A DNA stretch of 37,207 bases, taken from Verrucomicrobiota bacterium. GTDB taxonomy: Bacteria > Verrucomicrobiota > Verrucomicrobiia > Verrucomicrobiales > DEV007. Below, in pieces: positions 9,283-19,832 of the stretch. The notes under the pieces are model-generated. The model did no database searches, was not told the DNA's origin, and was given only the letters and a program-made list of their open reading frames with translations. Numbering within the stretch: position 1 is the stretch's first letter; each line of letters begins with the position of its first letter. The DNA is taken from the NCBI GenBank assembly GCA_024277195.1, contig JAJRVS010000313.1:1-37207 (forward strand), read 5' to 3'. Both the position numbers and the translations under genes were made by a program.

Positions 9283-9342
9283 GCGATTGAAAAAGTTAGC
9301 CATTGCTTATTGAAAGCTACCTTACCACGCATCAACATCATT

Positions 9343-9521
9343 GCGCCCTTTTAGGGCTGGCAATAAAACCGATTTAACCCCAGCGCTTCGCACTGCGCTA
9401 TCACATTTTGTCCTTTCAGGACAGTTTGCTTGCATCTCTTTTGCACCAACGGTGCTCAATGATATAGCCCAGTGCGAAGCGCTGGGTAAAAAATTTAATT
9501 CTTCCAGCCCTGCAAAGGGCG
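9343..9521. repeat. Nested palindromic (cloverleaf-like) intergenic repeat element
   Basis: Two inverted repeats are nested. The outer pair is GCGCCCTTTTAGGGCTGG (9343-9360) with CCAGCCCTGCAAAGGGCG (9504-9521). The inner pair is a 23-base arm at 9379-9401 whose reverse complement, with one mismatch, is at 9464-9486. Inside are two small hairpins, GTCCTTTCAGGAC (9410-9422) and GCACCAACGGTGC (9443-9455), and the outer arms are themselves palindromic. Folded as single strand or RNA, it would form a branched cloverleaf. It sits between the desaturase and a convergent lipoprotein gene. I believe similar elements are dispersed in Verrucomicrobia and Bacteroidetes genomes, but cannot confirm that here. 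An open frame that runs through it (9341-9538) is unlikely to be a gene. Confidence 0.8.
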
Positions 9522-9585
9522 AAACGCATAGCGCTTAGCAGCTTAACTATTTTGCCCTGGACCCTGAGAGAGCTGTCGCCTTTTA

Positions 9586-18797: not shown

Positions 18798-19832
18798 ATG
18801 AGGAAGATCAGAGCGTTTTTGTTGGGACCTACGGGGGAGACGAATTATTATCATGTGGTGAGTCGGGTGGTGGGCAGGCAGCGTTTGCTGACGGATGAGG
18901 ATAAGGAGCGCTTTCGGGGGATTTTGGTGAGACAGTTGGAGTTCAGTGGGCTGCGTGCGCTGGCTTGGTGTTTTATGGATAATCATTTTCATTTGTTACT
19001 GGAGGTGCCGGATAAGGAGCTGGCAATGCAGGGATGGAAGGAGGAGGATTATTTGAAGCGGTTGCAGATTTTTCGCCGGGAGTGGAACACGCAGCAGGTG
19101 CTGGGTCAGGTGGCGATGTATCGGGAGAATGGCTGTGATAGGGGCATCAGTGAGATTGCGCAGCGGGTGAGGGAGCGGCTGTTTGATCTGTCGATGTTCA
19201 TGAAGGAATTGAAATTGAAGATGACGCTGAGCTATAATAATGCGCATGACCGTGAGGGGGCTTTGTGGCAGGGGAGGTTTAAAAGTGTGCTGTTGGAAGG
19301 CGGGGATGCGGTGCGCATGGTGGCGGCGTATATTGATTTGAATCCGATTAGGGCGGGCATGGTGAAGGAACCGGAGGATTATCGTTGGTGCAGTTATGCG
19401 GCGGCGGTGGCGGGAGTGAAGGGGGCGCGTCAGGGACTGACTTTTGCGGTGATGGGGCGTCAACGGGTGGCGTGGAGGAAGGTGGCGGAGGAATACCGGA
19501 GGCTGTTGTACTGTAAGGGGGAAGAGCGCTTGGGAGGTCAAGCGGGGGATGGAAAGGACGGTTGGCGGGGAGGCTTCACGCAGGAGCAGATTGAGCCGGT
19601 GTGGCAGGAGGGGGGCAAGTTGCCGTTGGCGGTGGCCTTGAGGTGTCGGGTGCGGTATTTCACCGAAGGAGCGGTGCTGGGAGGTCAGGCTTATGTGGAT
19701 GAGTTTTTTGATCAGCGCAGAGAATATTTTGGTGATCGCCGTAAGGATGGTGGACGGAAGATGCGCGGGGCGCAGTGGGGGGATATGAGATCGCTACGCG
19801 ATTTGCGGGCAGATGTGATTCGTGGTCGCTGA
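18798..19832 (+). CDS. REP-associated tyrosine transposase (RAYT, Y1_Tnp/IS200-like)
   Basis: A protein of 344 residues. The HUH-type nuclease domain shows YYHVVSRVVGRQRLLT, the metal-binding His pair in NHFHLLLEV (H63, H65), MKELKLKMTLSYNN with a candidate catalytic tyrosine, WQGRFKSVLLEG and AAYIDLNPIRAGMV, all typical of the family. Such enzymes cut and join single-stranded DNA at REP palindromes and may spread or maintain them, but do not usually form full insertion sequences. The tail of about 130 residues is Arg/Gly-rich. Codon use is very G-rich. The gene stands alone after the oxidase operon; a weak AGCCT...AGGCT hairpin with a T-rich end near 19850-19880 may be its terminator. No direct repeat or right-end palindrome was found. 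Confidence 0.92.
   Translation: MRKIRAFLLGPTGETNYYHVVSRVVGRQRLLTDEDKERFRGILVRQLEFSGLRALAWCFMDNHFHLLLEVPDKELAMQGWKEEDYLKRLQIFRREWNTQQVLGQVAMYRENGCDRGISEIAQRVRERLFDLSMFMKELKLKMTLSYNNAHDREGALWQGRFKSVLLEGGDAVRMVAAYIDLNPIRAGMVKEPEDYRWCSYAAAVAGVKGARQGLTFAVMGRQRVAWRKVAEEYRRLLYCKGEERLGGQAGDGKDGWRGGFTQEQIEPVWQEGGKLPLAVALRCRVRYFTEGAVLGGQAYVDEFFDQRREYFGDRRKDGGRKMRGAQWGDMRSLRDLRADVIRGR

Follow-up and report, generated by a model that had tools for sequence, protein, structure and literature searches.

Acido-Lenti-1 elements (Rfam family RF01687) reportedly lie near group II introns. Rfam lists the family as an sRNA, and its discoverers rated it a probable RNA (PMC2864571). Among the transposases with a single catalytic tyrosine, the survey of Quentin et al. 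2018 lists TnpA-Y1 subclass 1.2 without REPs, as it does subclass 2.3 (PMC6006769). The ISKra4 family of insertion sequences (ISs) is p-MULT 4, with a Mutator-like DDE transposase; for ISKra4-group elements, insertion is reported to take place upstream of sigma-A promoters, on both sides where the repeats are near-perfect, and the published distance between the element end and the -35 is 15-17 bases for the best-studied ISKra4 relatives (PMC3942029).

The element analysed here lies in a stretch of 37,207 nucleotides (the whole of which is called the window) from a Verrucomicrobiota genome, G000, of 5.49 Mb in 422 contigs. It is very probably a MITE of an ISKra4-family IS, the interior of which is a captured pair of REP-like repeats; as a MITE it belongs to a known kind, though its interior is unusual. 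We also consider it probable that RF01687 is the single-stranded DNA recognition repeat, i.e. the REP, of TnpA-Y1 subclass 1.2, an orphan class of transposases, and that in this genus a pair of these repeats came to lie between ISKra4 ends and owes its spread to an unrelated DDE transposase. In the literature, mainly that of open-access journals, we found neither a paper joining RF01687 to a transposase nor a description of an ISKra4 MITE of this kind, and the association between RF01687 and subclass 1.2 appears new.

Anatomy of the window copy

The initial annotation had described two nested inverted repeats around two small hairpins at 9343-9521. These are present at the positions that it gave: inner arms at 9379-9401 and 9464-9486, within a 29-nt pair (9379-9407 and 9458-9486) that is 90% complementary, outer arms at about 9344-9360 and 9504-9520 with two bulges, and the small hairpins, which are the two H3 of Table 1. 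Folded as DNA this core reaches -50.1 kcal/mol, as against -23.0 +/- 3.2 for shuffled sequences (z = -8.4; 0/200 shuffles as low), i.e. it is far more stable than shuffles. What had been overlooked is that each long arm is itself composed of local hairpins (H1 and H2 in Table 1). The interior consists of two inverted copies of a three-hairpin unit, H1-H2-H3, where H1 is GCCCTTTCAGGGC, H2 is CCCAG...CTGGG followed by CTA or CTG, and H3 comes third. The long arms are complementary because the core is made of two inverted copies of this palindromic unit.

The interval 9343-9521 covers the core, but the element is larger: homology among copies extends about 66 bp further to the left and about 44 bp further to the right. 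The statement that this is not an IS end is thus true for the interval itself, but IS-type ends lie just outside it. A terminator, which had also been discounted, can be rejected for the core: a single weak match was found at the window copy, at chance level. The window copy shows no clear target duplication and, with most of its left end lost, is probably immobile.

Table 1. Features of the element in the window. Model R1 was built from units of the same genome, those of the window included, so that the R1 scores given here are to be read with caution; TIR, terminal inverted repeat.
Feature	Position	Strand	Basis
Whole MITE copy, about 275 bp, left end truncated	9290..9564	+	extent of homology among copies; match of the right TIR
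Left TIR remnant (AAAAAGTTAG; GGGTGCAGGACA absent)	9290..9299	+	comparison with intact copies; TIR pattern finds no left end
Unit A, REP-like, Acido-Lenti-1 type	9345..9423	+	model R1, 71.9 bits; RF01687, 23.0 bits at 9389-9423
H1 of unit A, GCCCTTTTAGGGC	9345..9357	+	sequence; helix 1 covaries across genera
H2 of unit A (CCCAGCGCTTCGCACTGCG), then CTA	9379..9397	+	compensatory changes among MITE copies and across genera
H3 of unit A, GTCCTTTCAGGAC	9410..9422	+	sequence; H3 predicted and covarying in alignment A3
Unit B, inverted copy of unit A	9442..9520	-	model R1, 69.5 bits; RF01687, 21.9 bits at 9442-9486
H3 of unit B, GCACCGTTGGTGC on the - strand	9443..9455	-	sequence
H2 of unit B	9468..9486	-	nearly invariant in 50 copies
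H1 of unit B	9507..9520	-	sequence
Right TIR, degenerate (GGGTCCAGGGCAAAATAGTTAA, 2 mismatches)	9543..9564	-	TIR match

Local hairpins and long arms behave differently among copies. In 50 copies of the MITE core three pairs of the left H2 have undergone double changes, CCCAG/CTGGG having for instance become CCCGG/CCGGG. Across genera, 14 of the 15 pairs of the unit are compensated and the alignment contains 85 double-change cells, as against 25 in shuffles; this alignment was fitted to the model, which favours structure, but slid controls are far lower. Compensatory changes thus support the local hairpins, and the long arms of the cloverleaf have no independent support. It is extremely improbable that the long nested palindrome itself, as a cruciform or cloverleaf, is the selected structure, as the initial annotation had suggested. 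Such a selection would fit the stability of the fold (z = -8.4), but the nested long-arm pairing is broken at some positions in 17-19 of the 50 copies, with a double change at one pair only where the left H2 has three, and the long complementarity already follows from the inversion of two palindromic units.

Copies, ends and target sites

Searched with the 179-bp core, the genome yielded about 40 further copies, most of them at 88-94% identity. The homology among aligned copies ends at a TIR, GGGTGYARGACAAAAWAGTTA, with its inverse at the other end. The element is short and non-coding, and measures 283-289 bp in most copies that retain both ends. For the 22 copies with both ends the flanks indicate a target-site duplication of 9 bp: the flank identity is 0.631, as against 0.280 +/- 0.034 for re-paired flanks (z = 10.2; 0/2000), and any other length gives z < 3. 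Several of these duplications are exact, e.g. CTCAAAATC and TTCTACACC. The place of the window copy is empty in both congeners searched (G001 and G002), and further copies are absent from the orthologous places in G001; this search covered 1.63 Mb of congener sequence. Among 57 genomes the full-length element was present in G000 and G002 only. Nearly all of the 30 copies examined are intergenic, without bias in the orientation of the neighbouring genes (15 tandem, 8 convergent and 7 divergent).

Copies and empty sites together suggest that the MITE has moved. The initial annotation, which had proposed a mobile, repeated and non-autonomous element with REP-like content, was right on these points. 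It had envisaged as the opposite outcome a single copy devoid of covariation; the copies are numerous and their local hairpins covary, and the flanks, where it had proposed to look for a target-site pattern, carry an exact 9-bp register.

Variants of the MITE were also observed. A short form of 197 bp with a single central H2 hairpin (L070, 1501-1697; G000:C111:8486-8682), possibly an internal deletion, is bordered by an exact 9-bp target duplication, AAAAGGGTC. In L018, L072, L028, L247, L104 and L107, the place of H1 is taken, in either half, by a longer stem, CGCCCGTTGCCTTCGGCTGTCTACGCTACG...CTCAGGGC.

At the end of contig C260 of G000 the terminal repeat of the MITE lies beside the C-terminal portion of a transposase, and contig C45 ends with the N-terminal portion; the two contigs overlap by 141 bases. 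Scored over 153 residues only, the fragment matches the ISKra4 family model with E = 4.6e-29, and for this reason does not reach the cut-off set for whole proteins. The right end of the MITE matches the 3' end of this ISKra4-like gene, stop codon included. No complete autonomous IS is assembled in G000, the transposase being split over two contigs and the left end not found.

In C45 the ISKra4-type transposase gene is closely preceded by a short ORF of the same orientation (L110, 206-631), which may belong to the IS. This site, next to which lies an LRR-like ORF on the opposite strand, yielded no left terminal repeat.

In another Verrucomicrobia genome (L103) a complete ISKra4-type IS lies between the same TIRs, with an exact 9-bp duplication, CGCAAACGG, and at L091 the same terminal repeat directly adjoins the transposase gene. 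Other Verrucomicrobia (Luteolibacter, Akkermansiaceae and others) carry MITEs of 183-212 bp with the same TIRs and unrelated interiors devoid of units (L093, L094, L097 and L098), exact 9-bp duplications being present for L097 and L098. The TIRs in common with ISKra4-family ISs, and the match of the right end to the genome's own ISKra4-like gene, therefore argue for an ISKra4-type MITE and against an element moved by the RAYT of the window, 9 kb away; the enzyme indicated by TIRs together with a 9-bp duplication is likewise an ISKra4-family DDE transposase.

A promoter-like -35/-10 pair starts exactly 27 nt outside the element at 8 of 27 left ends (p = 8e-11) and at 5 of 51 right ends (p = 1e-4), p-values that are uncorrected for the scan of tens of offsets by which this one was found. 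The excess at left ends survives any correction for the scan, and the peak at right ends falls at the identical offset. The IS of L103 is among the elements with such a pair. The -35 is thus 27 nt from the element end, i.e. 18 beyond the duplication.

Interior units and Y1 genes

RF01687 corresponds to H2-H3 of the unit. The window units score 23.0 and 21.9 bits, below the gathering threshold of 37 bits; further copies and units of this family, elsewhere in G000, exceed it (42.6-47.4 bits). Units were called by covariance model, a regular-expression scan being too loose. There are 149 matches in G000, stand-alone pairs included. Numerous units are found outside MITEs, frequently as inverted pairs, and units without MITE ends are dispersed in G000 and in other Verrucomicrobiota. 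Pairs without TIRs are found at L253, L255, L256 and L261; the nearest TIR-less relatives of the core in G000 are on C16 (L256, 76% identity) and C378 (L260, 72%). The canonical 5' GT[AG]G foot was not found at the hairpin: what is invariant there in alignment A3 is no more than an AG that precedes H2, on the opposite strand.

Stand-alone units, not MITE copies, flank Y1 genes. In G000 they border an IS200-like gene that is complete (C301, L041), and another that is truncated (C72, L042). Of 194 Verrucomicrobiota genomes, 43 contain RF01687, 42 a C301-type protein and 32 both (9 expected; p = 1e-18), in a test where related genomes are not independent and 29 candidates were scored per genome. 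A unit is present within 200 bp of the C301-type gene at 26 of 30 loci, and one on each side at 17 of them; the locus L323 is circular in this respect, because R1 was built from units of the same genome including those beside two Y1 genes. The units are typically 7-60 bp away, with H1 facing the gene. As background, 1.62 Mb of congener DNA contains four strong unit matches. All 25 readable C301-type proteins have the subclass 1.2 signature Y---Q--HH, and the same arrangement of unit and gene is found on a plasmid of Persicobacter (Bacteroidota). No matching unit was found at the subclass 1.2 gene of a Bernardetia plasmid; the link between unit and subclass 1.2 is therefore not universal.

The region upstream of this subclass 1.2-like tnpA of Bernardetia (L354, 1295-1469) contains clustered inverted repeats of another kind (AGTTGCAGAGCAACGTAATATT), which may represent a second type of repeat for subclass 1.2.

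The window contains a RAYT-like Y1 gene 9 kb away from the element (18798-19832, + strand), which had been proposed as its mover. The product matches Pfam Y1_Tnp, and NCBIfam REP_Tyr_transpos below the cut-off; it is one of 28 Y1 matches in G000, most of them of the same MRKxRxFLLG-type family. With NHFH, YIDLNP and about 344 residues its sequence resembles subclass 2.3. At 18 loci of G000 with Y1 genes outside the C301 type, the family of the window RAYT included, no unit match was found. The expected co-occurrence with RAYT genes did not appear, and we reject this gene as the mover: it belongs to another Y1 family, and the IS-type TIRs and 9-bp duplication indicate the ISKra4 DDE transposase.

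More generally, it is very unlikely that a REP-associated Y1 transposase, whether that of the window RAYT or that of subclass 1.2, moves the element in one piece as a REPIN or BIME with incidental flanking repeats. This would fit the core, a REP-like inverted pair to which there are similar TIR-less pairs (that of L256 is 76% identical), but homology stops at IS-like TIRs with 9-bp duplications, and MITEs with the same ends have unrelated interiors in other genera. Y1/HUH transposition is not known to make target duplications.

We find it highly improbable that the element is kept for an RNA function, as an Acido-Lenti-1 sRNA or as a structure at the 3' end of an mRNA. The units occur in inverted pairs on both strands, at tens of copies per genome and in unrelated insertion sites; they lie tight against a transposase gene on either side and differ freely from one genome to the next, and no promoter was found at the window copy. 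Such a function would agree with the listing of RF01687 as an sRNA rated a probable RNA (PMC2864571) and with the covariation of the hairpins, but covariation is equally expected from single-stranded DNA hairpins read by a Y1 enzyme.

Proposed origin and comparison with known systems

For an ISKra4-type MITE with captured REP-like repeats, the anatomy suggests that an ISKra4 transposase would bind the ends, cut, and insert the element upstream of promoters with 9-bp duplications; with this transposase handling the ends, the core would therefore be a passenger. By analogy with the action presumed for TnpA-REP proteins on REPs, the subclass 1.2 Y1 protein probably nicks single-stranded DNA at or near the hairpins, and would once have spread the units. 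Two ISKra4 ends would then have closed around one pair of units, and the resulting element would have multiplied in this genus. The capture presumably went from REP pair to MITE and not the reverse; possible routes are a REP pair lying between two neighbouring IS ends, and the insertion of such a pair into a MITE.

RF01687 should then probably be re-filed, from an RNA family to a transposase-linked DNA repeat. This would clear false sRNA calls in Verrucomicrobiota, and perhaps in Acidobacteria and Lentisphaerae where RF01687 was defined. A class of Y1 transposases reported to be repeat-less would gain a candidate substrate, and thereby become amenable to biochemistry. The MITE would be a hybrid element, in which a REP-like repeat spreads without recourse to the transposase presumed to be its own.

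Compared with RF01687 as described (PMC2864571), the unit has the same two hairpins, H2 and H3, at the same spacing. It differs in being longer, with the additional H1, and in being repeated, mobile, arranged in inverted pairs and linked to a transposase, the window units being below the threshold of the family. REP, BIME, REPIN and REPtron systems (RAYT, TnpA-REP) are alike in their palindromic intergenic units, which are dispersed, form inverted pairs and stand on both sides of a Y1 gene. In contrast to these, the unit of G000 lacks the canonical GTAG/GTGG foot and has three hairpins, and its Y1 gene is of subclass 1.2 (IS200-like class), not of class 2. The C301-type proteins share with subclass 1.2 their length, the DH[IV]H, WQ and Y---Q--HH motifs and a low copy number; that subclass has no REP in the survey (PMC6006769), whereas here units lie beside 26 of 30 Verrucomicrobiota genes and one Bacteroidota gene. 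TIRYTs and TIRtrons (PMC3733652), compared by their description, are likewise Y1 genes flanked by inverted repeats, possibly belonging to repeated families; unlike the C301 type, most published TIRYTs are of subclass 2.1 (PMC6006769). As for the ends, the MITE is like ISKra4-family ISs (PMC3942029) and bacterial MITEs in its TIRs, its 9-bp duplications and the transposase of the matching family found on the same ends, and like the former in inserting upstream of promoters of sigma-70-like type, whether these lie to its left or to its right. It differs from these ISs in that it has no coding capacity, in the distance of the -35 (27 nt instead of 15-17), and in an interior composed of a pair of REP-like units.
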